Origin: a virus
Virus record (IMG/VR): IMGVR_UViG_3300031576_000016
Span: 1 to 64,000 of that record
DNA length: 64,000 bases
Reading direction: 5' to 3' (one strand)
Of this stretch, positions 3,728 through 58,786 are shown piece after piece (the stretch's first letter is position 1; each line of letters starts with the position of its first letter). The notes under the pieces are model-generated. The model did no database searches and had not been told where the DNA came from. It saw only the letters and a program-made list of their open reading frames with translations. The position numbers and the translations under genes were made by a program.

Positions 3728-3728
3728 G

Positions 3729-5510: not shown

Positions 5511-5511
5511 G

Positions 5512-32475: not shown

Positions 32476-32514
32476 GCGTTCCCATCTACCTCCTGTGATG
32501 GGTGCAGGGTTCGA

Positions 32515-32547
32515 GGGGCGGTCCTGATGGACCGCCCCTTTTCTTTT
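32515..32547 (+). terminator. Rho-independent terminator after capsid gene
   Basis: GGGGCGGTCC-TGAT-GGACCGCCCC forms a perfect 10-bp stem followed by TTTTCTTTT. It lies 40 bases after the capsid stop and would reduce transcription into the connector genes. Confidence 0.95.
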
Positions 32548-38521: not shown

Positions 38522-38901
38522 TGGACCAAATGGACCGGCTACGCAACGTGGCCAACACTCGTAAGGAAGTTGAAGAGCACGCGACCCAGCGAAGCTTCCA
38601 GGAAGCCTCCAGGCGGCGTCTGCTCAAGATACTCGAAAAGAAGCTCCACACGGCGTTCATCGGAGCCCTGTCGCACGTTGAGACCCACTTCGGTAGGCTC
38701 TGGGGGCATGGCAAGGACGAGATGGATTGCACTGAACAAGAACTGGCCTGGCGTGAGATTTGGAATCTGTGTCGCACGGATATTCTCACCAACGGCAACA
38801 ATCAGCTTCGCGCGGTGCAGGCTGAGATGCAGTTGTACAAGATTGAGTGGAATCGGTATTCCACTCAGCTAGTAGTGAAACGGAATGGCCAGGACGTGTA
38901 G
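38521..38901 (+). CDS. Candidate tail assembly protein (126 aa)
   Basis: ATG 38521 in a TAATG overlap. Helical: LLKILEKKLHTAFIGALSHV and ILTNGNNQLRAVQAEMQL. Ends in TAG; the same frame continues open into the next gene. Position suggests tape measure chaperone or tail assembly role. Confidence 0.65.
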   Translation: MDQMDRLRNVANTRKEVEEHATQRSFQEASRRRLLKILEKKLHTAFIGALSHVETHFGRLWGHGKDEMDCTEQELAWREIWNLCRTDILTNGNNQLRAVQAEMQLYKIEWNRYSTQLVVKRNGQDV

Positions 38902-39851: not shown

Positions 39852-39898
39852 AAAGGGCAGCTTCGCCTCAGACAAGGTGCGCAGCTGCCCTTTTTTTT
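39852..39898 (+). terminator. Terminator just upstream of the tape measure
   Basis: AAAGGGCAGCT (39852-39862) and AGCTGCCCTTT (39883-39893) make an 11-bp stem with a 20-base loop, followed by a T8 run (39891-39898). It ends 12 bases before the tape measure ATG. It would attenuate tape measure transcription. Confidence 0.92.
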
Positions 39899-39910: not shown

Positions 39911-42900
39911 ATGGCTGATTTCAACATTGTTGCGAGACTTCAGATTCAGCTTCAAGCTGGGTCTGCGGCGGCTGCGGTGCAGCAGCTTCAACAGCAGCTG
40001 CGCAACGCGAACCTGTCGCTCGCCTTCGGCCTCCAGCCGCAAGCTCTTGGTGGTCTCAACAACCTCAACCAGGGGCTTCGCGCGACTCAGGCTGCGGCCT
40101 CAGCAACCTCCTCCTCTCTGCGCAGTACCACCCAGGTCATCAATGATGGCTCCACGGCCATCGAACGCTTTGGGGCTCAAGCCGGGCTCGCCGCTCGCCG
40201 CTTCATTGCCTTCACCGTAGGCGCGTCTACCATTGTGAAAGTCGCGCAAGCCTTTCGAGAAGGTATTGCGGCCGGTATTGATTTCAACCGCACGATGGTG
40301 AAGATTGCCCAGGTTGGCGGCGACACCAAGGGGCAGTTGGCTGAGCTTGCGTCAGAAGTGACCAGGCTCTCGACTACCTGGGGCATCTCGTCCAAAGAGC
40401 TTGCTAACGCGGCACTCGTTTTCAAGCAGGCCGGCTTGTCGGCTCAAGAAGTCAAGGGCCATCTTGAGACCCTTGCCCTCACGGACCTCGCGCCAAACTT
40501 CGAGTCGATGGCTCAGACGGCCGAAGGTCAAATCGCCATCTGGCGTCAATTCGGCACCAACGTAGACCAAACGCGCGAAGCCCTTGGTGCAGCCAACGCG
40601 GTTGCCGGCGGCTTTGCCGTTGAGTCGCGCGACCTTATCGAAGCCGTCCGCAAATCCGGCGGTGCGTTCAAGGCAGCTGGCGGCAGCTTCAACGAGTTCA
40701 TTTCTCTGTTCACAGCCGTGCGTAGCACGACACGAGAATCGGCCGCTGAAATCGCGACCGGTATGCGGACAATCTTCACCCGCATTCAGCGTCCTCAGAC
40801 TGTTGAGTCGCTCCGCGAACTCGGCGTGAATTTGCGGTACACAGCGGATGAAGCCAAGAATCTTGGTCGTGCCGACCTCGAAAATCAGTTCGTTGGTCCA
40901 TATGAAGCCGTGAGCCGCTTGAACGAGGCACTGCGGGACATTCCGACCACGGACCCGCGCTTCTTGCAGGTCATCGAGCAGCTTGGCGGCTATCGTCAGG
41001 TCAGCCGTGTTCTGCCGATGATTCTCCAGTTCAGTGAGGCTCAGAAGGCCCTGAACGTCGCTCAAACCGGCAGCCTGTCCCTGACAGCGGCAGCCGAGAA
41101 GTCTCAGGAATCGCTTGGCCGTCGCTTGAGCCAGGTCAACGAAGAGTTCCTTGGCTTCATGCGAAGCATCGTGGAGAGCAAGGGTTTCCAGAGCTTTGTG
41201 CGGTTCTCCCTGGACCTTGCCAGCGCACTCATCAAGGTCCTGGATGTGGCTCGGCCACTTATCCCGGTCATCACCACGCTCGCCGCAGTCCGTATCGCAC
41301 AGAATTTCGGCCAGACGGCCGGCGGCTTCCTCTCGCACTTCATCGGCACGGCCCCGGGCAGCTTCACTCCGAAAAAGGTTGAACCTGGCGTTCGCTTCGC
41401 CAAGGGCGGTTATGTTCCCGGCTCGGGAGCTACCGACTCGGTCGCGGCTCACGTCATGCCGGGCGAACACGTCACCAAGAAAGATTCGACGCAGTCGGTT
41501 GACCGCCGGTATCCTGGCTTCTTGACAGCCATGAACCAGGGGGGCGACATTGGCGTCGAGAACTATTTCCGACATCGTTTTGCCGATGGCGGCGAAGCCC
41601 GCCAAGGGTTCGGCTTTGGTGACACGGTCAAGTCACTTCTCGCGAATAGCGTTCTCGGCCTTGGACTGCTAACAGGCGTTGATTCCGGTGACGCCTACGA
41701 AGTCGCAAAACAGCGAAGTGGCGAACAAGTCGAGCACGTCCAGAAAAGCCTTCAGGAAGACGAGAAGAAGAAGCGCCAAATCAAGCAAGCTTTCGGCGGC
41801 GAGACGCCGCGTCAGCGCTTCGGCTTTGGTGACAGCGTCAAGAAGTGGCTCTCGACCGGAATCTTGGCAGCCGGCTCGCTCGTTGGTGGTCACGGCCTGG
41901 ACGACCAGGTTTCTGTTGGCCAACAGGAAAAGCGCGACCGCATCGAGAATGTGAAGGAGTCGCTTGAAGAAGAGCTTCGTCGCAAGAACAAGAAGAAGCC
42001 TCAGAAGCTCGGCAAGGGCGGTACGCCCGACCTGGTTGCCGCCGATGGCTCGATGGTTCTGCCTCTCATCGAGAAGCACTTCGACGATGTCAAGCAAGAC
42101 GACCGTGGTCGCTATGTTACAAAACAAAACAATCGCGATGTGTTCTTCGAGTACATGCCAAAAATCAACGCCCTGAAGATTGACTTCTTGCAGGACGGCA
42201 TCGGCGACTTCAAGCACACGAACAAGTCTCTCCAGAAGGGCACACTGTCCTTCCTGCGCAATCTCCAGGGCGTTGCCAAATCTGCTGGCCAAAAGGTATT
42301 CGGCATTGTTGCGGCGGGCTCGGAACAAAAGCGCTCGAAGATTTACAAAGAGGGTCTTGAAAAGCTCGGCTTTGTCGCAGACGACACGTGGTCGGAATAC
42401 TACAAGAAAGCCGCCTTCGGCGGCGAGATGCGGCTGGCCAAGGGCGGCGATGACATCTTCAGCAAGTTGCCGAAGTATCCAAAAGAGGATGAGTCTGAGC
42501 TTCCGCCACAATACGGCAACCCAATCAATGAGTTCATACAGAAGAAAACTGGCCTAAGTAAGAAAGAGATAACTGCCGCTGCTCTTGCCGGGAGCGTTGC
42601 CGCTAATGGACTCCTAGCTGCCACTAGCATGTGGATTCCAGGTTCGCAGCCGGTTGCTACCGGCATTACTGCTCTTGGAATCGCTGGTGTCAAGAAGTTA
42701 CTGAAAAAGCGCCGTGGCTTTGCTGGCGGTCTGGATGTCATGCCAGATGGTCAGCATGAGTCGCTTCGTAATCTGTACGACCAGGTCAAGGAATACGCAG
42801 AGACGCGATTCAGTGCTCACGCTGGCAGCCCGGAAAGCGACCAGAAGAAGAGCAAGGCAACCATCGCTCACATTCGCCGCCTGGCGGCTGCTACACTCAG

Positions 42901-45900
42901 CAGGAAGGAAGTGTTGCAGCGTATCCCGGCCGGCTCCTCGATTGCTGGCATCGGTGCCTTCGGTGTGGCTATCAAGACGCCCGATGGCGACGTGATTCGC
43001 GCTCAGGCCGACAAAGCACCGGACCTCGCAAACAAATACGCCGCTGAGATTGGACGCAAGCCGTTCAAGCCTTGGCAGTACGCAACCGCTCGCCCGCCTA
43101 TTGATGAAGTGTTGCAGCCGACAGCCACGATGACTGTCAAGAAGGGTGAACGCTCAACGTTCATGGAGCGTCTGCCTTATGTGACGCCGCTCACCGAGCT
43201 TCCTCACCATCAGCAGGAAGAAGCTCATGAGAAGGCCCAGGCAGAACTGTTGCCGTCGATGGCCAAAAAGGGCTGGATGCTTACTGACAAGCACAAGGGC
43301 AACCTAGCGGTTGACAAGGCCGGCCGGTTCATCGCGCTTGACCCGGCGACTGCCAAAAAGATGAATGAGGACCAGCAGTCGCGGCTTCTCAGGATTCTCG
43401 CTTCAGACAAAGCGGTTGCTACTGGCCTGCCAGGGGCTCAGGTCGATGAGTCTACGATTCACGACCCGCGTCTGAGTGTTAGCCCGCCAAGTCCAACAGT
43501 GCAGACGCGCGGTCGTAAAAAGTTCGACATCGGCGGCGAAGCCGCTTTGCCGGAAGCAATGAAGTTGTTGCAACAACGCTTCCAGACTTTCGACGTGTCG
43601 CGTATTGCTGAGAACGTGACGTTTCACGACAAGATTCCATCGAAGACTTTCCCAGAGCGTGGCGCGATTGGTAAGTTTTATCCGGAGACGGATGAAATTG
43701 CCCTTTCTCGCCAGTTGAAGTCTCCGCGCCTTCTTGCAAAGACGCTGCTTCATGAATTCGTTCATAGGATTGATTACGACGAGGGCACGCAAAAGCGGCA
43801 TGGCTCTCGCGACAAAAAGTCTGTTCCCGGCAAGTTGGCTGCGCAGCTTCAGCCTGCATGGTCTGAAATGGCGATGCAGAGATATTTCAAGGGTAAGACC
43901 AAGGAACAGTTGACTCCGAAGGAACAAGAGTCGCTGGCATATCTGACGGCTCCACATGAAGTTCTTGCCTACATGGTCTCGGACGTGGCCACTCGGGACA
44001 AGGACCAGGTTCCTGAAGAACATGAAAAGGCTGTGCAGACACTGCTCAGGCGTCACCTACCGGCTCGGCAACCGCAGAAGTACGAACGTGGCGGATGGGT
44101 TGTCCCTGGCGAAGGCAACACTGACTCCTTTCCTGCTGACCTTGCTCAGGGTTCGTATGTCATCCGGAAGTCCTCGGTTCAAAAGCTCGGCGCGTCCAAC
44201 ATCCTGAAGATGGCAACCGGCGGCACTGTCCCGGCATTGCTCATGCCTGGCGAGGTTGTTATTCCGCCAGGTAAGGCTCGTCAAATCGGTCGTCACGCTC
44301 TGACCGAGATGAACCTTCACGGCCGTATGCCGTTCGCTCAGGGCGGCTTTGTGCGGATGGCAACTGGCGACCAGGTGCCGAAACAGGAGACTGTCAAGGT
44401 CGGCGCGCTACCTGAACGTTTTCAGGATGACGTTGAAAGGATGTTTCGTGGACTTGGTGCCAAGGTTCAGAAGCCACTGCATGAACTTGAAGTGGTCATT
44501 GAGCGGTTCGGCAAGAACATTGTCCGCGTTGTGAAGATTGTCGATGTGGCTGTCACTTCTACCGCGTTGCCAAAATCGGCAGCTTCTGCTGCTACGACTC
44601 CAGCAACCAAGCCACAAACAGTGCCTGCGCTGCAAATAGTCCGGGACCTGAAAGCTCACTTGATTGCTCAGGCTGAGGCGGGTGGTAAGTCTGGCAAGCT
44701 TTCTTCCGAGCAGGTTGAGAAGCGCAAGGCTCGCTATGACAAAATGCTCAGTGAGGAAAATCCAGAACGGTCGCTAGAAAAGTATGCCAAGTTTCAAACG
44801 AAGGCCCCGTCCTTCAGTGGTTACTTGGACAAGCGAGACCGCAAGCAAGCTGCCGAGGACCTGAAGAGCACCATCTATACGTCGTACCTGGAGACTGGCA
44901 CGACTAGCAAATACAAGAGCGCCAAAACTCCCGAAGAACGTGGTCGCGTGTTAGCTACGGCTGTGCCAAAGTACATTCGTCAAAATCTTGCCGATTTTGA
45001 GGGTGGTACTGAGACTGGTCGCAGCTATGAGACTGCGAAGAAGACTCGTGGCCTAGAGAGTCAATATCAAAAGGCGCTGAGGACACAGTCGCCAGAAGAA
45101 GCTTTGAAGTCGGTTGTTTATCAGGCAACAGCAAAGCGCATCCAGTATGAAGAAAGCTCTCGTCAAAATAAGGGTAAAGCGCCACGAACCCAAAAAGAGC
45201 TTCAAGCTGCAATTGAGGAACGATACCAGACGCGCATGGGCAAGTATGATGCCCACGACTTTGAGGGGCCGGCTGCGGATGTGGCTCGCGCAAAACTGTT
45301 CGGGCACAAAGACCATATCAAACGCGGTGCCGAGGAAGCTTCTGCACGTACCGGCAAAAGCGTTGACGAAACCAGGGTCGATAGTCTTGAAGCACTCCAT
45401 AGTAGCCTTGGCGATAGTTCTCAGGCTGCGGCCATTTATCGTCAGCAACAAACCACCGGTCTCCAAAGCCAACTAAAGCGCGGTAAAATCAGCCAGGCTA
45501 CTTTTGAAAAGCGAGTGGCCAAGCTCGATTCTCTAAGCGACGATAAGGCATCGAAACTATTACTGTATACCAGGGATGGTACGCTGCGCGAGAAGGTTGG
45601 CAAGCAGCTTGCTGCCGCCGGCATTACCGCCGGTAAGACTCCTCAAGAGACTCGGGAGAACATTGGTAAACGCCTCCAGGAAATGAAGGGAGAGTTGGAG
45701 GCTGCTAAGCCGACAACGGTTCCCGAAGTTGCCGGTCGCGGCCTCACGCCGGAAGAGAAGCGTAAGCGACTCGTTGACCAAGAAGTTCGCGGTGCGACCC
45801 TAGAGTCCGACTTGACTCCAAGCAAAGCCGACTTGAAGGAGTTGCGCAAGGACCCGGCCTTTGTAAAACAAGAGAAGCAAGACGCTGCACCATCAGCCCC

Positions 45901-48900
45901 GGAGAAAGCCTGGACTCAGCCAGCAGCCGCCGCCCAGACTGTTGCCCTTCCTACTAAGGTGGACGCGGTCAAAAAGTCTGTGCCTCGACCGACCGATAGG
46001 CAGCAACTTGAACGTCGCCTGAACGAACTCGAAGGCGTGGATGTTCCTTCTGCGCACGAGATGAAGGAAATTGCCGACATCCATCGGCAGTTGAAGAATC
46101 AGAAGACACCGGTTCCGCCACAACAACAGACCGGACGTGGCCGCGTTCGCGATACGCTTGCTCCGAGTGACCTACGTGACATCCAGGAACAGACAAAGGA
46201 CCTGGTTGTGCCCGAGGCCGCGATTTCGTCTGCCTCCGATAAGCTCAAGGCAGGGCCTACCGCTCAGGTCGCACGACAAGAACGCGAAGCTCGCGATAAG
46301 AAGCCGTCGCCAATCATTTTGCCTGGTGACCAACCGGCTGGTCCGCCGCGTCCGCTCTTCATTCCTGGTCAGACACAGGCGCAGCCTGATGCAAAGGTTT
46401 TCACAAGCGAAGCTGACTTCCGCCGCAGTCAGCAACCTTCTGCCAAAATTGTTACTGGCGATGAGACTCCGGTTCCATCGCTGGTTCAACCGACTCGGGA
46501 AGAAGTCAAAAAGTATGGTCGTTCTGCTGCTGGCCCGACTGCGGTTGCAGCAGCAGCTAAACAGCCTCGTGACATTCGTCGCATTATGGACAAGTTGGCC
46601 ACTTCCGGTTTGGTTGAAGACTTGGAAGTGCCTGGTAAGGGTGCTGACCCACGAGCCAAGAAGGGGCTTCTTCGTTATCTGAAGCAGTATGGCGAAGAGA
46701 TTGAGAAGGCTGGCAAAGGCACTTTGTCGCGTCGTCTTCAGAAGCTTGCTCGCAAGGCACCAGATTGGCAACCAAGCTTGCGTGGTATTCTGCCAGCCCC
46801 AGAAGAGGACACTACCACGTTTTCGTTCGCTGAGGAAGCGGCTGCCGCCACAAAGTCCAAGCCTCGCCCAAGCAAGAAGACCAAGGAACTGGACTTGGCG
46901 GTTGGCTACAAAGAGCCAAAGGTTGAATTTACGTTCCCTGAAGAAAAAGCGCCGCTGCCGCTTGAAAGCGACGTGAACCAAAAGTCGCGGCTGCGCCGTG
47001 AGCAGGAAGAGGAAGCCAAGAAGCGGCACAAGAACGCCGTGGATTTGGCATCGCAGCCAAGTCACAAATTGCAGGGGGACGCGGCAACTGTCCCGGTCAG
47101 TCTGACAAAAGAAGAAATCATCAGTAAGACCGTTAGCGATTTTGCTCCTACGGGCGAACCGAAGGAGCCGGATGTGCCGGCAAGTCTATTTGATAAGGAC
47201 AAGAAAAAGAAACAGACTTCTCGCCAAGAACATCTCAAAAAAGAGCGCCAGAGGTTCATCAAAGAAGAGGGCGTAACTGAAGAAGCGATTGCGTTTCGTG
47301 AGCGGATGCTTGACAGCACGAAGTCGCTGGATGAAGCTCGCAAGCTCATAGCCAGTCCCGAGTTTGATGGCCACGAGAAAATCAATCCTTATTTCGATGT
47401 CTACGCTCAAGAGCGTCATGGACAGAAGAAGAAAAGGAAGCCAAAGACTTGCGGCCTTGCTCCGGAACAAAGCTTCTTTGATAAGCCGACGCCGCAGCCG
47501 CGTCCGACCAGTTCGTTGCCGCCTCCTCCTTCGGGCAAGGTGCCTGAGACCTATAGTTTCGCTGGGGACCCGCCGGAGTCGAAACGGTATCACGTCGAAG
47601 GTGACCCTCTGCATCCAGCCCAACAACAGGGCGGTGAGCACCGCTCGCGCGACTTCTACCGCACGTTGTACAACAGCACAACGGCTGGCGATACGCTTGG
47701 CTATACCAAGAAGACGCGCCGCGAACTCGCAAAAGCCAAGGATGCTCTTGACCAGGCTCGTCTCGATGCTGCCGCTGACCCTACCGACGACAATCGGTTG
47801 CGTTTCAAAGAAGCTGGGCGGGCTTATGACAAGCTTGAGAAACAAAAGGTAGTCGTCGGCCGACGCGAAGCCGACCCGTACTACGCTCGTCGATTGCTCG
47901 ACCAGGCGAAGTCGGAATTGTTGCCGCACGAATACAAGGCGTTCGAGGCAGAGACACGTCGCGTTCACCCGAACCTTGCTTCGCAGGGCGGCGACCCAAC
48001 CATCTTGCGTCAGTACAAGGAAGGCAAGAGCGACGACGAAATTCGCGATAACCATTATGGACAAACTGGCAGACGAGTTGGTCTATTTGGTGGAGCCGCT
48101 ATCGGTGGGGCTGTTGGCTCATTGTTTGGTCCACTCGGCACCGTTCTTGGCGGCACCATTGGCGCTGCTGTTGGTCAAAAAATCGCAAAAGCCCTGCCTG
48201 GGTCTGCGGCGTTTGAGGAATCATTAGCAGAGAAGGGGACGGGCAACGTCAGTGTCGGTCATATTGCTGAGTACAAAACCGACAAGGAGACTGGCCAAAA
48301 GCGGCTTATTGGCGGTGACCTTCGCGAAAAAGGCCAAGCTGAACTAACCAAGTATCTGGCTGGTCGCGGTCCTGTCAGCGATGCAACAAAGCACGCCTTT
48401 GAAACTGAGGCCATCGGGCGGGCGGAAGCCCGCGTCAAACGCGAACTGATTTCCGCGCAGGAACGTTGGCTGAAAGCTGTTCATCCAAATATCTCTGCGA
48501 CCGAAAAACACAAGTTGGCTCTTGAGCAAGTTGATGCTGCTCTTGCTGGGCAGGCAAAGGTTGTCAAGAGTTCAACAGGTCGCTATTTGGGCGTTGAAAC
48601 AGAGCACACGAAGGCGAGCGACCTGGATAAGGCCACAGGCGCTGGTGGTGTTGGTTTCCAATTTCGCTCAGCTAAAGGTGCTATTGGCGACTGGATGGCC
48701 GATAAGTATCGTAGCTTGAAGGCTGGCTACGAAAAGTTCGAGTCGTCTAAAGCTGGTCAAGTGCTGAGTGGCGCGGGCAGCTTTTTGTCCAGTCAACCGG
48801 TTACGTTCTTGGCTCCGCTACTTGGAGGACAAATTGAACAATCGGCCGGCACCGCTGAAAATGCAGTCAAGGCTGGTGCTAGTGGTGAAGGCACATATAC

Positions 48901-51900
48901 AACTCGTCGTGGAATTGGTGGCGCTGCAACGGGCGCGATTCTTGGCGCAACTGTCGGTTCTATTGCTGGTCCGATTGGTGCCGCAGTTGGTGGTGCAGCT
49001 GGCGCTCTGGTTGGATTCACAAGTGCTATCAAGGATGCTGCAAACGAAATTCGTGAAGTAAAAATTGGCAATGCGTTGACCATTATTTCGGACCGTTTGA
49101 CCACGATTGCCAATGTGCCAGTACGAACTTTGCCAGGTGGACAGGCTACTGCTGATGACCCATTGGTTCGTTCTTCGATGGCTGACGTTCTGCGTGAACT
49201 CACTACTTCTCGCAATGAAACACTCGACAAAAACATTAGTGAATCTAGCGGCTTCTGGCGTAGTGCCGGAGCCGTGTTCGGCATCTCGAATCCGGTTGAT
49301 GTTCAAGGTCTCGCCGCGCGTCAGGAATCTGCTGACCGCCAGCAGGTTTCTCAAATCCTGCCGCAGAGCACGCAAATCATCAACCGTCAGGCCGAAGTGT
49401 TACTACGCAACAATCCGAACATTGGCGCTCGCGACGTTGCTCGACGCCTCAGCACTGAGGGTCTCACTGGCCAACTGATTCCTCGCATTGCTCAGGCTCG
49501 CCGCGTACCACTAGAACAATACTTGGATGAGCTTGCTTTGCAGGTTGCCCAAGTCAATACTCGATTGCGTGCTGAGTTGGCGCAGCACCAGGCTCGCGAA
49601 GGCCAGGAGAAGGTTATTCATACCTTTGGCCGGCTCGTGCTGGCGGTCCAATCGGCCTCCGACAGCCTGGTCACTCTGCGGGCGCAGGCTCAGTCTATGT
49701 CGGATGTGTTCTATGGCAACGTCACGGCTACGCCGGTCACCGCTCATTCCGAAGCTCTAACTCAGCTGGGACGCCAGGACCGTGGAGCCATTCGCCCGCT
49801 TGAAACCATCTCTCACGTCGTTGGCGATGAGCGCGGCAACCGTCTGCTTGAGCACGGCCGGGCAACTGACGATGTGGCTCGCGTTCTACCGGCTATCCTG
49901 GCTCGCGTTGGTTCGACCAACCCGCTTGAGCCGTCTGACTTCTCCCGCCAGGTGCGCGAACAACTTGTCAGCGCTTTCGGCGGTACGCCAACAGGCGGAC
50001 AAAACGCCGCCATCAACACCGTTCTGTCTGAGATTCAACGTGTCGGGGCGACGGGCGGCACCGCGCAGATTTTGCGTGAGATGCAGATTGACGCGACCGA
50101 GTTCACGCAGAAGCTCATCAACCCGCTGGCTGACCCGTTGAAGAAATTTGGTCAACAAGTTGCCCAGGACCTGGAGAAGGCCGGCAAGGAGTTTACCGAG
50201 AACGTCAACGAGTTTGTTCGTCGCACTCGCGTGGCCGGCGAAAGCATGGACCGCCTGGCTGCACTCCGCGTCACCACGGCCCGGGTACGAGCCGAGGTTA
50301 CGGCCCAGCAAAGCGGACGCCCGAATGATGTGCTCAGCCAACTCTCTCTGCAAACTCTTCAGAGCGGTTTGCAGTCTCGTCAAGAACGATTGACTGGCGT
50401 CGTCGGTCCGGCAGCGAGCAACCCAGACTTCATCGGTCGCCAGCTTCAGACTGTTCGCGCTCGTATCAACGAAGCGACCCATCGCCAGCAGGAAACCTTT
50501 GAACTGACCGGCGGACGCGGGCCTGCTTATGAAGCAGCAGCGCTTCAGTTGGCTCGGTTGAAGGACCAAGCAGCCAATTTGCAAAATGCTCTCAAGCACC
50601 TGGCTGACGTGTCCGAGAGGAACGCAGCTGCGCAGGAAAAGTTGGGGGCACTCAAACAAGAAGCTGATGCTCGCATTGGCCTCGGCGAACGCTACCTGCG
50701 TGCTGACGGCGAAGAGATGATGCGGCTCAATCGCGGCAGCCTCCTGGTCAACCAGGCATACAGCCGGCCGCAAGGTCAGCGCGGCCTGGACAACCTATCG
50801 GTTGAAGACCGTCGTCTCGCCCTGGATTGGGTCGGGGCTGCACGTGGCACACGTCTACAAGGCTTCCAAGGAAGCCCGCTGGCTGATGACGTTCATCGCA
50901 CGCTCATTCAAGAGAGTGCTGGCGGTGCGTTCAACTTGACCGCTGGTCAACAGAACGAGATGCAAGAGTTGCAGCGTGTCCTATTGGCAAATGCAGCTAC
51001 TGCGGAGCAGGCTCAGAACCAACTCATCACATTCCAGCGTGAGTCGGCTGGTGAGTTTTTCCAGAACCTAACTCAGCAACACGAGCAGTTTTTCAGTCGT
51101 CTTGAACAGACGCTCGCACGCGACCGTCTCTTTGAACAACAAAATCGTTTGAATGAAGTGGCAACTCAGCAGGCTTCGCTTCAGGGTTTGAATACGAATC
51201 GCGAAACTCTGCAACGAGCCGGCGTCACCAACGATGACCAAGTTCGCAATTTGCGCAGCAATCGCGGCCTTGTTAGCGAATACATGGGTCGCGTAAGCGA
51301 AGTACAAGCTTTGCGCCAAAGGTCAAGTAATCCGAGTGGCGCTGCCGATATTTTCGAGCGCACTTATGGCGACCGTCTTGGTTCGCAATTCTCTGATGCT
51401 GGCGGATGGGGAATCAACATTGGGCAAATGGGCCTTAGTTCTGGTTCCATAGGTCGCCTAACCGAGAATGTGCGAAACACCACAGGGTTCACGCCTGAGC
51501 AAACTCAAAGGGTTATCTCTAGGTTCTTGCAGCGTTCTGAAAACATAACTGGCCAAACTGGTAGTGCCAACACCAGAAGTGCTGTTACTGCAAACATCGA
51601 GGAGGCTATTCGTCGCGAACAGGCTTTGCAGTCGCAGGAAGCGCAGCAACGCTTGGCACCACTAGAGAATAACCTTCGCGGACGCCAAATCAACGTTGGT
51701 GGTCTGTCGCAGGCTGCGGCAAGTGGCAACTCAAACGCTCTGCTCCAGGCTATCGACTCATTTGATGGCGTTTCCAACTCCTTCACAACGCTGGATACGC
51801 GCATCCAGAATACCGCAGCGTCGTTCATCAATCTATCGAATAGTGTTCGCACGCTTCAGACGCGCGTTGACAATAACAACCCTAACGCTGGCGGCAATCC

Positions 51901-54900
51901 TTTCCGTTTTGCAACCGGCGGCACGGTTCCAAATGAACCAAGTCGCGTCTATCGGTCCTATGGCACTGACTCTGTGCCAGCCATGCTCACCCCTGGCGAG
52001 TTCGTGGTTCGGGCCGAAGCTGCGAGTGCCAACCGTGGACTTCTCGAAGCCATCAACCGCTCGAAGGGCGGTAGCGTCCAATACCACCAACGTGGTGGAG
52101 TCGCTTATCTGGCTGATGGTGGTTACGCAGATGATGAGCCGTGGGAAGTCAACGCTTACAACTCGCTGTACCGTCGCCGAAGCATGATTGGAGCCGGCGT
52201 TCTGGCTACCGGTGCTGCTTATCGTTATCGTAGTCAACTTGGCTCTGCTTGGCGAAACACCCTTGGTCGCGTTCCGGGTTTGAGATGGACAGCCGGGGGA
52301 ACTCCAGCAGCGGCAGCGGCTCCTACTACTACCGCTTCGCCGCCAACTCCGGTAGTGGAGCCTATGCCAGCATCCGTTCCGGCCACGCAGCCTCGTCAGG
52401 GGCTCCTTGGTCGCGTTCGCGGGTGGTTCGGCGGGACAGCCCCAGCACCTGTTCCTTCTCCTGCTAATACCGGAGCCGGCTATTTCACGGCACCGGCCGA
52501 CAATGTCGCGGCTGAGCTTGTTCCATCGCCTGCCCCTGCCGCTCCAGTAGACCCGGCTACCGCTCATACTGAACGTCTTAGTCGTCTGACTCCAGAAGCT
52601 CGTGCTCGCTACCAACGCATTATGGCGACCGAGCCAATCTCGCGTGCTGACGCTTTGGCAAGAGCAGAAGCGTACAACCAACGCATTTTGGGTGCTCAGA
52701 CACGAGGCGCAGAACGTGCTGCTGCTTACGGCCAACAGCAATCGAACTACGGCGCTGCACAACCACGCAATGCTCCGACGCAACCTGTGGCCAATGAGCC
52801 GCCAGGCTCAAATACGTGGTCGCGTCCAAATCGCGTTATTCCTCGTCCTTCCCCGACCGCCGCTACCACTTCGTCCCCAGCGGCAGCACCAGGCGCAACC
52901 CCAGCGCCTGTTGTTGAGGCTCCTGCTCCGGCTGCGGCTCCCCGCGCAACCGGAGCAGCCTCTACTCGCGTCACGCCAACAACCGCAACCGAGCCAGACA
53001 TCTATCGCTTGGCTCTCCAGGAGACGGCTGGCACACCACGTACTGGCCCAACCATTCGTCAGCTTCAAGCGACGAACGGAGCGGCTCAGGCTCCTCGTCC
53101 GCCTGTTCCGCAGGCAGCAGCGGCAACGCCAACACCAGTTGCACCCGTTCGCACACAGGTGACCGCTGGCCAAGGCATGGTAATCACGCTTGGCGCGAGC
53201 TTGGCCTGGAACCACCTGGCTCAGCAAGCCGGCTTCAATCAGAATGTCACCGACGCCGGCAACCTTGGCATTCTTGGCGGCGGCGTGGCATTGTCTACTC
53301 CGACCGTTGCTGGTGCTGGTCTGTCAGCAACCGTGGCTGCACCTGCGGCCATCATCGCTGCACCAGTGGCTGGTGTCATGGCCGGCAACATCATCGGTCG
53401 CAACGAAGACGCGACATCGCTGTTGACGACTGTCGTTCGTAATACGCCGACACCGCTGGCTGTCGCATACCGTGCGGCCGGCATCGACGAGGATGTGGCT
53501 CGCCGAGGCAGTCGCGAATATCAACGCATCTCTTCCAATGTTCACCAGGCACTGACAGTTCCTGGTGGTGATTGGGGACAACGCACTGCTGACGCAACTG
53601 CAAGCTGGGGTGAAAATGTGCCGGTAGCCGGACACATTGCTTCAGGTGTTGCGACATTTGGTGCTAACACAGGACGTGTGGTCACCGATGTTGTCACTGG
53701 CGTTGGTGCTGAATTGGCAACGCCGGTTGTCAACACGCTGGATGCTGGTGGTTCCTACATTCGTGCCAGCCAACAAGCGGCCTACACTGATGCTCGCGCA
53801 GCGTTCCAGCCATACTTCAGCAAGTATCTGGATGCCATCGAAGCTCGCCAAGATGAGCAGTTGAATGCGGCTGGCGCTTTGATTCCTTCGCTGAAGAGCG
53901 AAGTTGACGCCGCCATCGCTCAGACAGAATACCGCTCAGCGGTGCCGGAAGCTTCTCGCTCGTCGTTCTCCGCGCGTCTTGGTCGCATCTCGATTGGTAA
54001 GCCAACAGAGACCAGCCCAAACATCCTGAGCTTCATCGAAGACACATATGGTCAGGGTCACCTATGGAAGACAAATAATGGTGTTCACCTACAAGATGTG
54101 ATGCGGCAGCATGGCAGTCGCGTCGGCATGGGCGATGATGAAGGCGTTCGTATCGACTTCCAGAACCGCGCGAGTGAGAATCCGCGAGTCGGACGCGAAG
54201 CGATTTTCGCCAAGCTCCGTCAGCGCATCACTCAGCCTCTGGATGGAGCCGAAGGCCCGCGTCCTCGATTCGCTGTCATGGACCGTTTGCGTGACGCTTA
54301 CACTCCGGGCGACAACAACATCCGCACAATGATTGACCGGCTCCGTGGCGAAAGTGCTACCGAGCAAACAGTCCAGACGGACCGTCACACGACATTGCTG
54401 ACACAGGCGACTCAGTTGGACAATGACGAGCAACGCGCGGCATTGTTTGAACAGCCGACTCGGTTGCAGCAGCTACGCGAAAGTCTCCGGGCTCGTCGCG
54501 AAGTAGTGGCGGCTTTGGCAAACATGCCCGCCGACTACCGCAACTTGATGACATGGTACACCACTGGTTCGCCGCCGTGGATGCAACGCATTCGTCAGTA
54601 CCAGCAGGCAGCAGTTCTGGCTGGTCTCGACATCGAACGCGACCAAATGCTGACGCCTATCGGCTACGCAGCAGACCGGTTCTCGAACGAACAGCGCGAA
54701 CTCATCACCAATGTTCGCCGTGGTCAGATTGCTGAAATTCGCCGTCGTCAGAATGTGGATGCTCGGCTCGCCAATGGCGACACGCTCACGGCCATCTTGA
54801 ATGAGGTGCCGGCTGGGTGGAAGTCCATCTACGAACAGTCGATTCGCGAAACAGGCGGCAGCAATGCCGCAGAGACTGCTCACCTGACCGAGACAATGGG

Positions 54901-57900
54901 CGGCGTGGCCGGCGTCTATACTCGCGTTATTGGCGGCAACTTCGAGGGCAACAACTCGGCAGGCCAGCTTGCTTCGGCCGCGCGTTTGATTCCGGATGAT
55001 TTCCTACGTGCTCAGCTTTTGCCTGGTGGTCTTGAAGCCGACAACGCATTGTTCTCCTACCGGTCGAGTGACCTTCAGGATGCGATTGGGGCCGTTCGTC
55101 AACGACAGCTTCGCTTGCTACAAGAGGCCGGCGAAATCAATGCGGTTGGCGATGTGCCTCGTCAGCTTCGCAACGAAGGTGTCATCCCAGGCTTCGCTCC
55201 GCTCTCGTCCATTGCTCGTCAGTATCTGACTCCGCAGGCCCTGCCGCTTGATGCGTTCTTGGCCCAGGCCGGCAATTCGGAAGTGTCGCGTCGGTTCCGT
55301 CTGCGTGACGCTAACAACATCAAGCGTGAGAATCGCTCGTTCATGGCGATGCGACTCGACACGGCAGAAATCGCTGCTGCTCTGAATCCGCAGGCCGCGC
55401 CAGCCCCAGCCCCGAATGCAAACGTTCAACTCGCACGCGGCGGCATGGTCTATCTCGCCCAGGGCGGTATGCCTTCGCCGCTGTTCCAGCCGAGGGGCAC
55501 GGACACCATCCCGGCAATGTTGTCGAAGGGCGAATTCGTCGTCAACGCAGAAGCAACCAAGCAGCACCTGCCGCTTTTGGTGCAAATCAACGAGGGTCGT
55601 CGCCCATCCTACCGCGAAGACGGCGGGGCTGTTGGTGGAGCTATGTCGGCTGTCGCTGCGACTGCTTCTACGGCCCCATCCTCCCCTTCTCTGCTCAGTT
55701 CCGGAAACGAAGGCGACACCTATAACTTGGCCTCGATGCCGAGCAATGAACGCTTCTTGCTGACACAGACATTGTCTACTCTTGGCAAGCACCAGGTCGG
55801 CTCGATTCAAGACGCTGACGCTCGTCTGACGGGTCTCGAACAACGTTCGTCGAGCACCGCAGCCACTCAAGACAACCTGGCCGACGACCGCATCATTTTC
55901 GCGAAACTCGTGGCCGACAACATCGACGCCGGTCACCGCAATGCCGACGTGTTGGTCCGGTCGCAAACTAACCTTCAGAAACGGTTCTTCCTCCACTTGG
56001 GCGGCTCCCAGGACAAGTTCCTTGACAAGTTCGGCATGTCGCTCACTCTGGCTCCGAAGCTCGCGGCCAATGCCGCTCGCGCGGGTGACACGAACAATGT
56101 CTCGATGAAGCTCTTCCGCACCGGCGGCGTCGTTCAGTATTACGCAACCGGTGGTGAAACCAGCATGTTCCAGCCGCGCGGTTCGGACACAGTTCCGGCC
56201 ATGTTGAGCCATGGCGAGTTCATCGTCAATGCGGCCTCGACTCGGCACAACCTGGGTCTGTTGCGAAAAATCAACAACACCAAGGGTCCGGTCTATTATG
56301 CACGCGGGGGCCTGGTGGGTCCGGCCTACTTCTCTGAGGGTGGTCAGGCAGAACAACCGCAACCGCCGCCGATGCCGGCCACGCCGTCCGAGCCGATTTA
56401 CATCGACGAGGCAGGCCCGACTGTGGCTCAGCAGAATGCCGCAGCCGGCATTCAGGAATCTGGCGGCGAAGTTCCACAAGCCAGCAATGCTGCGGCTACG
56501 GCTCCAACTCCTGAGCTTCCGAGTCAGACGCCGTTTGGCGAAGACCCAGACCGCCCAGCAGCGGCCATGTTCCGGTTCGCGGCCGGAGGGTTCGTCCGTC
56601 CACGTTACTTGGCCCAGGGCGGACTTGTCAGCTACTTCGATGGCGGTGGACCTGTGCCGGCTCCGGCCCCAGCGGAAAGCCCTGAGCAACAACAGACCTT
56701 CCAACGATGGCGAGATTACCTGGCTGAGCCGGCGAATCAAACGCCGCCTCAAATCCAGATGTTGGAAGGGTGGTTCAATCGCGGCTTCGGTGCCAATGGT
56801 TGGGACCGCGCGGCATTGCGTGCTCGCCTGGCCCGAGACGGCAATCGTCTATCTCCACGTTGGCGAGGTTTCTTCCAGGCATGGTCTGGATGGGTCGGTC
56901 GTCAAAACACCGAGCGCGATGCAGCCGCACAAGCTCGTCTGGAAACATTCCGTCGTACCTTGGTGCCGACTGTCGGCGGCGCGCCAGCCGCGCCTCTGCC
57001 GCCCGAACAGGCAGAAGCTCGTTACCAGGCCGAGTATCGTCGTCTCCGCGACATCTGGACTCGTGGCGGCAATCCACTTCAGGGCAATCTCGAAGGCGAC
57101 GACGTTGAGGCGTCGGTCAATCAGGAAACAACTGCGGCCATCGCTGCCGGTCGTGCGAATTTCCAGTTCCTCAGTCCGGAACAGCGTGCTCGCTATCGCA
57201 TCCTTCGTGAAATGCAAGGTGCCCAGGTTCGCCAGCGCACGGCTCGCGGACAGGCCCTGACGTTCACCGGCGGTCCAACAGCTGACAACGCGCAAGGACG
57301 CGCTCTTGGCGAAGGCATTACAGGTCAGCAGGCATTCGCAGCGGCTCCTGGCGCTGTGGCCGAAGAGAACCTGTCTCCGACCGAGCAGGCTGTCCTTGAG
57401 GAAGAATATCGCTTCGCGGCTCAGGACCGTTTCAATCGTGAGACCCAAGGTCTGACGACTCTCGAACAGTTGACGCAATACTGGCAGCCGCGCGAAGGAC
57501 AGTCGAGCCCAGCATTCCGCCAGGCGTTCCGCGCGAACTCCAGTCGATACACGCCTCAGCAACGGGCAGAGATTCAGGCTCAATGGGACTTCTACGACGC
57601 CTACCTCGCACGCCGGCCGGCTCTCGAAGCGGCTCAACAGCAAGCGCGCGAACAGCAACGTCAGCAGGAAGCACAGCGTCAGCGTGAGGCTCAGGAACGC
57701 GAGACCGCCAACCAGCGCGTGCAAACGTTCCGCGACCAGCAGGCCGCGCTCGACCAGGAAATTCAGTTCCAGGCTGCCGTCAATCCGAATGGCGGCTCGG
57801 CGAACTTCCTACGTGAACGTCAAGCCGGCGAGCAGTTCAACCAGAACATGCAGCGTTTCAACGCTCGTTGGGGCGAACTCGAAAATCGTGACCGCAACGG

Positions 57901-58786
57901 CCGCGAAGAACGCGAATGGAATCGGATGCAGGCCCAATGGCGTCAAGTCGAACGCCAGGGTGGTGAAGATGGGGCACGTCGCTTGTTCGTGGCCCAGAAC
58001 GCGGCTCAGGCCCATCAGGGCGCGGCCATCCAGAACTTGCAGCGCCGGCAGTTCATTGCCAACGCTCAGCAGCCGTTCCAGGCATTCGGCTTCTCCCGGC
58101 CTGGCATCGAAGGTCAGCGTCAGGCGGATGTCGCCGTGCTCGCCCAGCGTCAAAACTGGAACCAGCAGGTGCTCCTCCAGGACTTCAACGCTCGCCGGTT
58201 GCTTGGACAGCAGCCCGGCTTCCCGGTGCCGGCACGTGCCTTCGCTGAGGGCGGCGTCGTTCCTGGCAGCGGCGTCCACGACACTGTGCCTTCCCTGCTC
58301 ACTCCAGGTGAGTACGTCCTGAATCGCCACGCTGTCCAGCGGATTGGTGTTGGCAACCTCCACAGCATGAACCATTTCGCAAATGGCGGCTTGGTGGGCG
58401 GCGTGAACTACCTGGCCGGCGGCGGACAGGCCACAGGGTCTGGTGTGGGCATCAATCCGGAAGTCGCTCAGGCGTTCAGTCGCTTCGGTGACACCGTGGT
58501 TCAGATGGGCGGCGGCTTCAACGTCTTCAACGCAAGTGTGCAGCAGTTGACCAGTGCGTTTAGTATCTTCGGGGAACGTTCGTCCAAACTCACCGACGCC
58601 CTGAACAACTTCCCGGGCACGCTCAATATCCAAGGACATCAAACGGTGGAACTCATTCTCAACGGAGCCGAAGTTCTCGCAAGTATGCAAGGGGACTTGC
58701 AGGCTCTGGTCCAGGACGCAGTCAAGACGGTCGTTCGCGAACGCCTTGGCGGTATCCTCTCTGATGCCGGCGTGCAACTGGAGTAA
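39911..58786 (+). CDS. Giant tape measure protein (6,291 aa)
   Basis: ATG 39911, no strong Shine-Dalgarno. Residues about 90-450 carry the TP901-type tape measure domain (FIAFTVGASTIVKVAQAFRE; later GISSKELANAALVFKQAG). The rest mixes helical and Pro/Ala/Gln-rich stretches. Embedded elements: four glycine-zipper or hydrophobic segments (about 889-930, 2722-2762, 3000-3036, 4452-4496), a duplicated FGFGD unit (564 and 634), a kinase-like segment (about 950-1180), a HEFVH zincin motif (1281-1285) and seven PGE-type repeats. The protein sets tail length, probably near 1 micrometre. It is 29 percent of the window. Confidence 0.95.
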   Translation: MADFNIVARLQIQLQAGSAAAAVQQLQQQLRNANLSLAFGLQPQALGGLNNLNQGLRATQAAASATSSSLRSTTQVINDGSTAIERFGAQAGLAARRFIAFTVGASTIVKVAQAFREGIAAGIDFNRTMVKIAQVGGDTKGQLAELASEVTRLSTTWGISSKELANAALVFKQAGLSAQEVKGHLETLALTDLAPNFESMAQTAEGQIAIWRQFGTNVDQTREALGAANAVAGGFAVESRDLIEAVRKSGGAFKAAGGSFNEFISLFTAVRSTTRESAAEIATGMRTIFTRIQRPQTVESLRELGVNLRYTADEAKNLGRADLENQFVGPYEAVSRLNEALRDIPTTDPRFLQVIEQLGGYRQVSRVLPMILQFSEAQKALNVAQTGSLSLTAAAEKSQESLGRRLSQVNEEFLGFMRSIVESKGFQSFVRFSLDLASALIKVLDVARPLIPVITTLAAVRIAQNFGQTAGGFLSHFIGTAPGSFTPKKVEPGVRFAKGGYVPGSGATDSVAAHVMPGEHVTKKDSTQSVDRRYPGFLTAMNQGGDIGVENYFRHRFADGGEARQGFGFGDTVKSLLANSVLGLGLLTGVDSGDAYEVAKQRSGEQVEHVQKSLQEDEKKKRQIKQAFGGETPRQRFGFGDSVKKWLSTGILAAGSLVGGHGLDDQVSVGQQEKRDRIENVKESLEEELRRKNKKKPQKLGKGGTPDLVAADGSMVLPLIEKHFDDVKQDDRGRYVTKQNNRDVFFEYMPKINALKIDFLQDGIGDFKHTNKSLQKGTLSFLRNLQGVAKSAGQKVFGIVAAGSEQKRSKIYKEGLEKLGFVADDTWSEYYKKAAFGGEMRLAKGGDDIFSKLPKYPKEDESELPPQYGNPINEFIQKKTGLSKKEITAAALAGSVAANGLLAATSMWIPGSQPVATGITALGIAGVKKLLKKRRGFAGGLDVMPDGQHESLRNLYDQVKEYAETRFSAHAGSPESDQKKSKATIAHIRRLAAATLSRKEVLQRIPAGSSIAGIGAFGVAIKTPDGDVIRAQADKAPDLANKYAAEIGRKPFKPWQYATARPPIDEVLQPTATMTVKKGERSTFMERLPYVTPLTELPHHQQEEAHEKAQAELLPSMAKKGWMLTDKHKGNLAVDKAGRFIALDPATAKKMNEDQQSRLLRILASDKAVATGLPGAQVDESTIHDPRLSVSPPSPTVQTRGRKKFDIGGEAALPEAMKLLQQRFQTFDVSRIAENVTFHDKIPSKTFPERGAIGKFYPETDEIALSRQLKSPRLLAKTLLHEFVHRIDYDEGTQKRHGSRDKKSVPGKLAAQLQPAWSEMAMQRYFKGKTKEQLTPKEQESLAYLTAPHEVLAYMVSDVATRDKDQVPEEHEKAVQTLLRRHLPARQPQKYERGGWVVPGEGNTDSFPADLAQGSYVIRKSSVQKLGASNILKMATGGTVPALLMPGEVVIPPGKARQIGRHALTEMNLHGRMPFAQGGFVRMATGDQVPKQETVKVGALPERFQDDVERMFRGLGAKVQKPLHELEVVIERFGKNIVRVVKIVDVAVTSTALPKSAASAATTPATKPQTVPALQIVRDLKAHLIAQAEAGGKSGKLSSEQVEKRKARYDKMLSEENPERSLEKYAKFQTKAPSFSGYLDKRDRKQAAEDLKSTIYTSYLETGTTSKYKSAKTPEERGRVLATAVPKYIRQNLADFEGGTETGRSYETAKKTRGLESQYQKALRTQSPEEALKSVVYQATAKRIQYEESSRQNKGKAPRTQKELQAAIEERYQTRMGKYDAHDFEGPAADVARAKLFGHKDHIKRGAEEASARTGKSVDETRVDSLEALHSSLGDSSQAAAIYRQQQTTGLQSQLKRGKISQATFEKRVAKLDSLSDDKASKLLLYTRDGTLREKVGKQLAAAGITAGKTPQETRENIGKRLQEMKGELEAAKPTTVPEVAGRGLTPEEKRKRLVDQEVRGATLESDLTPSKADLKELRKDPAFVKQEKQDAAPSAPEKAWTQPAAAAQTVALPTKVDAVKKSVPRPTDRQQLERRLNELEGVDVPSAHEMKEIADIHRQLKNQKTPVPPQQQTGRGRVRDTLAPSDLRDIQEQTKDLVVPEAAISSASDKLKAGPTAQVARQEREARDKKPSPIILPGDQPAGPPRPLFIPGQTQAQPDAKVFTSEADFRRSQQPSAKIVTGDETPVPSLVQPTREEVKKYGRSAAGPTAVAAAAKQPRDIRRIMDKLATSGLVEDLEVPGKGADPRAKKGLLRYLKQYGEEIEKAGKGTLSRRLQKLARKAPDWQPSLRGILPAPEEDTTTFSFAEEAAAATKSKPRPSKKTKELDLAVGYKEPKVEFTFPEEKAPLPLESDVNQKSRLRREQEEEAKKRHKNAVDLASQPSHKLQGDAATVPVSLTKEEIISKTVSDFAPTGEPKEPDVPASLFDKDKKKKQTSRQEHLKKERQRFIKEEGVTEEAIAFRERMLDSTKSLDEARKLIASPEFDGHEKINPYFDVYAQERHGQKKKRKPKTCGLAPEQSFFDKPTPQPRPTSSLPPPPSGKVPETYSFAGDPPESKRYHVEGDPLHPAQQQGGEHRSRDFYRTLYNSTTAGDTLGYTKKTRRELAKAKDALDQARLDAAADPTDDNRLRFKEAGRAYDKLEKQKVVVGRREADPYYARRLLDQAKSELLPHEYKAFEAETRRVHPNLASQGGDPTILRQYKEGKSDDEIRDNHYGQTGRRVGLFGGAAIGGAVGSLFGPLGTVLGGTIGAAVGQKIAKALPGSAAFEESLAEKGTGNVSVGHIAEYKTDKETGQKRLIGGDLREKGQAELTKYLAGRGPVSDATKHAFETEAIGRAEARVKRELISAQERWLKAVHPNISATEKHKLALEQVDAALAGQAKVVKSSTGRYLGVETEHTKASDLDKATGAGGVGFQFRSAKGAIGDWMADKYRSLKAGYEKFESSKAGQVLSGAGSFLSSQPVTFLAPLLGGQIEQSAGTAENAVKAGASGEGTYTTRRGIGGAATGAILGATVGSIAGPIGAAVGGAAGALVGFTSAIKDAANEIREVKIGNALTIISDRLTTIANVPVRTLPGGQATADDPLVRSSMADVLRELTTSRNETLDKNISESSGFWRSAGAVFGISNPVDVQGLAARQESADRQQVSQILPQSTQIINRQAEVLLRNNPNIGARDVARRLSTEGLTGQLIPRIAQARRVPLEQYLDELALQVAQVNTRLRAELAQHQAREGQEKVIHTFGRLVLAVQSASDSLVTLRAQAQSMSDVFYGNVTATPVTAHSEALTQLGRQDRGAIRPLETISHVVGDERGNRLLEHGRATDDVARVLPAILARVGSTNPLEPSDFSRQVREQLVSAFGGTPTGGQNAAINTVLSEIQRVGATGGTAQILREMQIDATEFTQKLINPLADPLKKFGQQVAQDLEKAGKEFTENVNEFVRRTRVAGESMDRLAALRVTTARVRAEVTAQQSGRPNDVLSQLSLQTLQSGLQSRQERLTGVVGPAASNPDFIGRQLQTVRARINEATHRQQETFELTGGRGPAYEAAALQLARLKDQAANLQNALKHLADVSERNAAAQEKLGALKQEADARIGLGERYLRADGEEMMRLNRGSLLVNQAYSRPQGQRGLDNLSVEDRRLALDWVGAARGTRLQGFQGSPLADDVHRTLIQESAGGAFNLTAGQQNEMQELQRVLLANAATAEQAQNQLITFQRESAGEFFQNLTQQHEQFFSRLEQTLARDRLFEQQNRLNEVATQQASLQGLNTNRETLQRAGVTNDDQVRNLRSNRGLVSEYMGRVSEVQALRQRSSNPSGAADIFERTYGDRLGSQFSDAGGWGINIGQMGLSSGSIGRLTENVRNTTGFTPEQTQRVISRFLQRSENITGQTGSANTRSAVTANIEEAIRREQALQSQEAQQRLAPLENNLRGRQINVGGLSQAAASGNSNALLQAIDSFDGVSNSFTTLDTRIQNTAASFINLSNSVRTLQTRVDNNNPNAGGNPFRFATGGTVPNEPSRVYRSYGTDSVPAMLTPGEFVVRAEAASANRGLLEAINRSKGGSVQYHQRGGVAYLADGGYADDEPWEVNAYNSLYRRRSMIGAGVLATGAAYRYRSQLGSAWRNTLGRVPGLRWTAGGTPAAAAAPTTTASPPTPVVEPMPASVPATQPRQGLLGRVRGWFGGTAPAPVPSPANTGAGYFTAPADNVAAELVPSPAPAAPVDPATAHTERLSRLTPEARARYQRIMATEPISRADALARAEAYNQRILGAQTRGAERAAAYGQQQSNYGAAQPRNAPTQPVANEPPGSNTWSRPNRVIPRPSPTAATTSSPAAAPGATPAPVVEAPAPAAAPRATGAASTRVTPTTATEPDIYRLALQETAGTPRTGPTIRQLQATNGAAQAPRPPVPQAAAATPTPVAPVRTQVTAGQGMVITLGASLAWNHLAQQAGFNQNVTDAGNLGILGGGVALSTPTVAGAGLSATVAAPAAIIAAPVAGVMAGNIIGRNEDATSLLTTVVRNTPTPLAVAYRAAGIDEDVARRGSREYQRISSNVHQALTVPGGDWGQRTADATASWGENVPVAGHIASGVATFGANTGRVVTDVVTGVGAELATPVVNTLDAGGSYIRASQQAAYTDARAAFQPYFSKYLDAIEARQDEQLNAAGALIPSLKSEVDAAIAQTEYRSAVPEASRSSFSARLGRISIGKPTETSPNILSFIEDTYGQGHLWKTNNGVHLQDVMRQHGSRVGMGDDEGVRIDFQNRASENPRVGREAIFAKLRQRITQPLDGAEGPRPRFAVMDRLRDAYTPGDNNIRTMIDRLRGESATEQTVQTDRHTTLLTQATQLDNDEQRAALFEQPTRLQQLRESLRARREVVAALANMPADYRNLMTWYTTGSPPWMQRIRQYQQAAVLAGLDIERDQMLTPIGYAADRFSNEQRELITNVRRGQIAEIRRRQNVDARLANGDTLTAILNEVPAGWKSIYEQSIRETGGSNAAETAHLTETMGGVAGVYTRVIGGNFEGNNSAGQLASAARLIPDDFLRAQLLPGGLEADNALFSYRSSDLQDAIGAVRQRQLRLLQEAGEINAVGDVPRQLRNEGVIPGFAPLSSIARQYLTPQALPLDAFLAQAGNSEVSRRFRLRDANNIKRENRSFMAMRLDTAEIAAALNPQAAPAPAPNANVQLARGGMVYLAQGGMPSPLFQPRGTDTIPAMLSKGEFVVNAEATKQHLPLLVQINEGRRPSYREDGGAVGGAMSAVAATASTAPSSPSLLSSGNEGDTYNLASMPSNERFLLTQTLSTLGKHQVGSIQDADARLTGLEQRSSSTAATQDNLADDRIIFAKLVADNIDAGHRNADVLVRSQTNLQKRFFLHLGGSQDKFLDKFGMSLTLAPKLAANAARAGDTNNVSMKLFRTGGVVQYYATGGETSMFQPRGSDTVPAMLSHGEFIVNAASTRHNLGLLRKINNTKGPVYYARGGLVGPAYFSEGGQAEQPQPPPMPATPSEPIYIDEAGPTVAQQNAAAGIQESGGEVPQASNAAATAPTPELPSQTPFGEDPDRPAAAMFRFAAGGFVRPRYLAQGGLVSYFDGGGPVPAPAPAESPEQQQTFQRWRDYLAEPANQTPPQIQMLEGWFNRGFGANGWDRAALRARLARDGNRLSPRWRGFFQAWSGWVGRQNTERDAAAQARLETFRRTLVPTVGGAPAAPLPPEQAEARYQAEYRRLRDIWTRGGNPLQGNLEGDDVEASVNQETTAAIAAGRANFQFLSPEQRARYRILREMQGAQVRQRTARGQALTFTGGPTADNAQGRALGEGITGQQAFAAAPGAVAEENLSPTEQAVLEEEYRFAAQDRFNRETQGLTTLEQLTQYWQPREGQSSPAFRQAFRANSSRYTPQQRAEIQAQWDFYDAYLARRPALEAAQQQAREQQRQQEAQRQREAQERETANQRVQTFRDQQAALDQEIQFQAAVNPNGGSANFLRERQAGEQFNQNMQRFNARWGELENRDRNGREEREWNRMQAQWRQVERQGGEDGARRLFVAQNAAQAHQGAAIQNLQRRQFIANAQQPFQAFGFSRPGIEGQRQADVAVLAQRQNWNQQVLLQDFNARRLLGQQPGFPVPARAFAEGGVVPGSGVHDTVPSLLTPGEYVLNRHAVQRIGVGNLHSMNHFANGGLVGGVNYLAGGGQATGSGVGINPEVAQAFSRFGDTVVQMGGGFNVFNASVQQLTSAFSIFGERSSKLTDALNNFPGTLNIQGHQTVELILNGAEVLASMQGDLQALVQDAVKTVVRERLGGILSDAGVQLE
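41405..58320 (+). repeat. Seven dispersed PGE-type repeats in the tape measure
   Basis: Copies start at 41405, 44090, 44219, 51917, 55463, 56150 and 58250 (residues about 499, 1394, 1437, 4003, 5185, 5414, 6114). Core pattern is GG-x-VPG-x-G-x-x-D-S/T-V-PAML-x-PGEFV followed by a polar helix. Five of them share the TD-x-VPAML-x-x-GEFVV form closely. Repeats of this type are known in tape measure proteins; seven in one chain is many. Confidence 0.85.
41600..41995 (+). repeat. Tandem duplication of a 60-70 residue unit in tape measure
   Basis: Residues 564-623 and 634-695 both start RQ-x-FGFGD-T/S-VK, have a short hydrophobic stretch, and end in a V-Q/K-x-SL-x-E-x-E basic helix. This looks like an internal duplication. 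Confidence 0.6.

Follow-up and report, generated by a model that had tools for sequence, protein, structure and literature searches.

A 6,291-codon tape measure gene with motif-bounded modules predicts a phage tail near 1 micrometer

The DNA analyzed here (the window, 64,000 nucleotides) was part of a linear, 93,578-base virus record in IMG/VR. It contained an open reading frame that began with ATG and ran for 6,291 codons without a stop codon or an N, exactly as the initial annotation had claimed. The features of this gene and of its neighbors are listed in Table 1.

Table 1. Features of the tape measure locus (positions in the window; residue numbers refer to the 6,291-aa protein)
Feature	Position	Strand	Basis or remarks
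Terminase large subunit	24565..26709	+	PHROG 2, PF03237
Tail tube protein, 341 aa	35548..36573	+	44-sequence alignment; model pLDDT 83.9; matches siphophage tubes including P74-26 8ed0
Probable tail assembly chaperone	37439..38521	+	Position; conserved in relatives; predicted function
Small conserved gene, 126 aa, between two chaperone-like genes	38521..38901	+	82 relatives; predicted function
Charged protein with acidic DxxGR repeats, probable chaperone	38926..39816	+	Composition and position; predicted function
Intrinsic-terminator-like hairpin, U8 tract	39852..39898	+	Fold -28.3 kcal/mol, z -3.5; ends 12 nt 5' of start codon
Tape measure protein gene, 6,291 aa	39911..58786	+	Open frame; PF10145 and PHROG tape measure matches
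PF10145 PhageMin_Tail domain (150-360)	40358..40990	+	Pfam match; inside N-terminal block 77-561, conserved in all relatives
Junction motif copy 1 (496-545)	41396..41545	+	Profile search
Module A (546-1390)	41546..44080	+	Weak ABC1-kinase-like match 1111-1164; zincin-like HEFVH at 1281
Tandem motif copies 2 and 3 (1391-1438, 1435-1471)	44081..44323	+	Profile search; doublet in most large relatives
Charged segment (1472-2700)	44324..48010	+	1480-2667 without relative in viral_contigs
Two glycine-zipper stretches (~2723-2761, ~3000-3044)	48077..49042	+	Weak Pfam matches, E 3e-5 and 1e-3, below cut-offs
Conserved central stretch (3036-4071)	49016..52123	+	25% identity over ~1,070 aa to G007, G008, G009; part to G001
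Junction motif copy 4 (4000-4052)	51908..52066	+	Profile search
Module C (4053-5174), proline-rich	52067..55432	+	Composition (7.6% P)
Junction motif copy 5 (5175-5230)	55433..55600	+	Profile search
Module D (5231-5410)	55601..56140	+	Motif positions, composition
Junction motif copy 6 (5411-5458)	56141..56284	+	Profile search
Module E (5459-6110)	56285..58240	+	Motif positions, composition
Motif copy 7 (6111-6158) and C-terminal domain	58241..58783	+	Homologous to C-terminus of shorter relatives
Conserved 489-aa gene right after tape measure, tail-tip candidate	58790..60259	+	Orthologues in G001, G002, G003

The N-terminal region of the predicted protein matched PF10145 with an E value of 6.6e-24 (85.3 bits versus a curated cut-off of 33.2) and also matched nine PHROG tape measure families, which confirmed the earlier claim of a TP901-type tape measure domain at the start of the frame. 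The N-terminal block was 43 to 50% identical to its counterparts in 13 relatives across about 400 to 500 aa.

No sequence library named the putative tube gene, the exception being a weak match to PHROG 985 in two of its relatives, and its profile did not find a solved relative by sequence. However, an AlphaFold2 model based on 44 relatives, which replaced a useless three-sequence model (pLDDT of 29.8), had a mean pLDDT of 83.9, and its best matches in the PDB were siphophage tail tubes and tail-tip proteins (SH-Ab15497, T5, DT57C, and P74-26 8ed0, the last with an E value of 1.5e-8). The charged gene immediately upstream of the tape measure gene was also considered as a tube candidate, and its charged, repeat-rich sequence ruled this out. 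This gene was similar to the first gene after the tube gene, and the two formed a paralogous, chaperone-like pair that was conserved in relatives. Position and charged composition suggested that the genes between the tube and tape measure genes may code for assembly chaperones. On the other side of the tape measure gene, the 489-aa product was 28 to 34% identical to its counterparts in three relatives and had no Pfam or PHROG matches. Thus, the earlier placement of the frame between tail tube and distal tail genes held in part: a tube gene did lie upstream, but three genes intervened and the downstream gene matched no family.

A sheath gene (PF04984) was not found in the window's record or in 11 relatives (12 records), whereas the control genomes were positive. 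A tube without a detectable sheath is what would be expected of a siphovirus-type phage; because the record is linear and possibly incomplete, the absence is not proof. Taken together, the PF10145 domain, the synteny, a tube fold like those of P74-26 and T5, and the failure to detect a sheath provided good support for a tape measure protein and a non-contractile tail. Farther downstream of the tail genes, we observed a cytidylyltransferase gene (PF02348, E value of 3.5e-30; L002:8438-9112, positions 66437-67111 of the record), a weak sialyltransferase-like match (L002:9085-10113), and several glycosyltransferase genes (L003:11113-18023), and a role of these genes in glycan modification is possible.

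Three relatives that were recognized by their terminases (G001, G002, and G003; 48 to 49% identity) contained syntenic tape measure genes, which coded for 2,711 aa in G001, 2,527 aa in G003, and 1,736 plus 355 aa in G002, where a frame change split the gene. In the split gene (G002 58889-65129; L018), the 355-aa piece held the C-terminal domain, and either an error or a real break could account for the split. In the same relative, a 3,646-aa open reading frame (65131-76071; L018/L019) lay between the tape measure gene and the homologue of the 489-aa gene, and it had no similarity to the window's tape measure at 1e-3. The window gene was 2.3 to 3 times longer than the same gene in these sister phages, and the matches were colinear: the N-termini were 43 to 47% identical, window residues 3189 to 3785 aligned with the center of the G001 protein (residues 1263 to 1839, 24% identity), and the C-terminus matched the C-termini of the G001 and G003 proteins.

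These matches bear on the possibility that two or more separate genes were joined into this frame during assembly. The frame was found in one metagenomic record, and no second, independent assembly was recovered in a search that may have covered few near-identical records. In addition, third-position GC dipped in the middle of the gene, and residues 1480 to 2667 had no relatives in viral_contigs. However, both ends of the protein matched the respective ends of single tape measures of 2.1 to 2.7 kaa in sister phages, which makes a fusion at either end unlikely. Moreover, the junctions at the recurring motif described below were in frame, and no direct DNA repeats able to cause a mis-join were found, the sole repeat being 33 nt long with 82% identity. 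Codon usage (RSCU) in every section of the gene correlated with that of other tail genes at 0.80 to 0.91, a result that was supporting rather than decisive because the +1 shifted frame scored only slightly lower in several sections. Equally large frames also recurred at identical lengths in pairs of records, namely, 7,795 (G085/G086), 7,737 (G037/G039), 6,457 (G104/G106), and 5,799 residues, which, if the samples are independent, argues that the giant frames are not random assembly errors. We considered a fusion very improbable; an internal join could conceivably lie within residues 1472 to 2700, a segment that was mostly free of relatives.

Frame lengths were also surveyed in IMG/VR. When viral_contigs was searched with the N-terminal domain as a single protein, there were no matches, and an alignment was needed; a profile built from the N-terminal block then showed that the same domain is encoded by at least 540 stretches in IMG/VR. 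In 100 records from two scans, frames with the domain ranged from 1,333 to 7,795 aa, the lower end being unreliable because some short frames were cut at contig ends. Of 85 distinct lengths, 26 were above 5,002 aa, the size in Thermus phage P23-45, and 6 were above 6,291 aa, proportions that describe this set rather than the group, since records were picked by similarity and not at random. The idea that this is one of the longest tape measures therefore stood insofar as the protein is longer than that of P23-45, but it was not a single outlier. Rather, it belongs to an uncultured phage group with many giant tape measures, several of which are longer still. A literature search, mostly outside subscription papers, did not find a report of longer tape measures. 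A search for hosts in GTDB genomes returned only nine contigs, which were in metagenome-assembled genomes of mixed phyla.

The protein and its relatives shared a junction motif of about 47 aa, GG..VPG.G..D.VPA.L.PGE.V (consensus FASGGIVPGPGGTDTVPAMLTPGEFVVNKKATKKIGLGLLKKINSGK). A profile that was built iteratively, starting from five copies in the window, detected seven copies in the window protein and two to nine in each of 13 relatives. Copies were often 50 to 65% identical across phages, whereas most of the intervening segments were not recognizably alike. In all 14 proteins, the N-terminal block was followed by a copy; most of the large proteins also had a tandem pair ahead of the central stretch, and the last copy was usually 115 to 220 residues from the C-terminus (farther in G027, G032, and G003). 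In relatives, the segment after the tandem pair, or its counterpart, spanned about 1.05 to 1.7 kaa, versus about 2.5 kaa in the window protein. This layout is consistent with rulers in the window's phage group having grown by insertion of modules set apart by the motif. The motif is not a new one, and it also occurs outside tape measures: it was found in 516 cultured-phage records, mostly in annotated tape measures among those listed, and also in a 659-aa hypothetical protein near baseplate genes in the T4-like cyanophage Synechococcus phage SynMITS9220M01 (L131:6590-8569).

In the window protein and 10 relatives, the segments between motifs yielded scattered weak Pfam matches (best E values of 2e-7 to 2e-4), including EF-hand, cytidyltransferase-associated, ADP-ribosyltransferase exoenzyme, DnaJ, and ABC1 matches, mostly in one member each. 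HExxH in a hydrophobic context was present in 5 of 14 proteins at differing positions. The segments had no PHROG matches at 1e-5, and searches by sequence did not find a solved relative of the zincin-like or kinase-like segment. These weak domain matches and HExxH motifs suggested that the modules may be exchangeable cargo. Some modules resemble enzymes, so the delivery of enzymes together with the DNA is a probable second role of the ruler; a similar role has been proposed for the tape measure of P23-45, which is fused to an RNA polymerase.

The zincin-like HExxH in the window protein and in four other members of the 14 compared is also what might be expected if the protein were a protease-cut precursor, with a shorter mature ruler and the other pieces as separate virion proteins. 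Processing of tape measures occurs in lambda and T5, which provides a precedent. However, no cleavage site was identified in the protein, and the P23-45 tape measure also has a metallopeptidase domain, yet it is described as one 5,002-residue protein. We considered such a precursor to be improbable.

A terminator-like hairpin occupied the corresponding position upstream of the tape measure gene in many relatives (L069, L063, L085, L138, and others); it was detected in 52 of 85 deduplicated records, with differing stem sequences, and 1 of 40 shuffled controls scored. It was present in 24 of the 26 records with the longest frames (more than 5,002 aa). Median frame lengths were 4,860 with the hairpin versus 2,795 without it (Mann-Whitney p of 6e-5, a value that ignores kinship and to which cut frames add noise). 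Other strong terminator-like stems, of 11 to 12 pairs, were located at 32513-32540, just after 32475, and at 36598-36623, just after the tube gene; the total count in the scan that gave these two stems fell below its shuffle mean, so only the strong stems in it carry weight. The simplest reading of the hairpin is probably that of a read-through terminator, which would lower the copy number of the tape measure relative to the tube.

In the assembly pathway that we propose, chaperones would coat the nascent tape measure protein, and P74-26/T5-like tube subunits would then polymerize around the ruler and stop at its end. Since growth would stop there, tail length should scale with residue number. 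At 0.145 to 0.161 nm per residue, 6,291 residues predict a tail of 0.91 to 1.01 micrometers, and the earlier estimate of about 0.94 micrometer agrees with the published ruler of 0.15 nm per residue. The value for TP901-1 is 0.145 nm per aa (PMC5099701), and the motif-bearing, 2,432-aa tape measure of Brevundimonas phage Bambus, which has a 392-nm tail (PMC10070969), gives 0.16 nm per aa. The P23-45 tape measure is 5,002 aa long (PMC10770324) and its tail exceeds 800 nm (PMC9022992).

The main alternative is that only helical parts span the tube and that folded, inserted modules sit at the tip or the neck, in which case the tail would be about 300 to 600 nm long. The segment from the motif doublet to the next motif stays at about 1.05 to 1.7 kaa in most relatives while the rest is variable, and enzyme-like modules and proline-rich segments do exist. 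Among the 14 family members compared, the window protein had the highest proline content (5.4%) and the lowest fraction of residues in Pro/Gly-poor runs (0.50), so much of it may not be straight helix; the corresponding fraction in P23-45 was 70% versus 50% here, by a crude measure of composition only. However, deleting a 114-aa segment with a hydrolase motif shortens the tail of TM4 by about 20 nm (PMC1796659), and thus embedded hydrolase residues count toward tail length in that phage. Similarly, the P23-45 tail exceeds 800 nm even though its tape measure includes a roughly 1,100-aa RNA polymerase. We considered the helical-span alternative unlikely, although folded modules or proteolysis could shorten the tail below the ruler prediction. 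In our judgment, a tail longer than 0.7 micrometer is reasonably likely.

We favor as probable the reading in which this uncultivated phage has a long, non-contractile tail of about 0.9 to 1.0 micrometer and in which the frame codes for its tape measure, a ruler that grew by modules. The gene is real and of the right family, its predicted tail length is plausible, and it belongs to a broader group in which even longer rulers occur. More tentatively, and with somewhat more doubt than confidence, we suggest that this large uncultured group has rulers of up to about 8,000 residues that arose by modular insertion at the motif, carries phage-specific, enzyme-like cargo, and makes tails of up to about 1.2 micrometers, and that the rulers would act as multi-enzyme injection carriers, with their expression held down by a position-conserved hairpin.

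To our knowledge, the longest virus tails belong to one group of Thermus phages. A tail of about 1.2 micrometers would exceed that of any known virus, and if a whole group of environmental phages has rulers predicted to be longer, extreme tails would no longer be the exception but common. Within the group, ruler length varies naturally while the ends and the tube are conserved, which would allow a test of whether tail length really follows residue number and of where folded modules are placed. The modules themselves are candidate virion-delivered enzymes.

One of the closest known systems was that of P23-45/P74-26: its tape measure (gp96, 5,002 aa) is likewise giant and contains extra modules and a metallopeptidase-like motif, a two-domain tube protein of about 345 aa is encoded a few genes upstream, and the tail is non-contractile. 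In contrast, no BLAST match was found at 1e-3, and the junction motif was not detected in gp96. The window protein is also 1,289 aa longer, and the DxDxD signature of RNA polymerase was sought in it and not found; the protein did not appear to be a P23-45-type tape measure with a fused RNA polymerase. The TP901-1-type tape measures (PF10145) have the same N-terminal domain family and proposed ruler mechanism, but about 810 residues are counted for the TP901-1 tail, and comparable modular growth is not reported there. The closest cultured-phage match to the N-terminal 500 aa was a distant one, yomI of SPbeta (23 to 24% identity across only about 75% of the query), which is also annotated as a transglycosylase, that is, an enzyme within a ruler. 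Finally, annotated tape measures of Gordonia, Mycobacterium, Nodularia, and Brevundimonas phages carry the same GG..PGE motif, and the two cultured tape measures that we examined, those of Bambus (2,432 aa) and Nodularia phage kac65v162 (3,312 aa), were much shorter than the window protein and contained only one or two clear copies.
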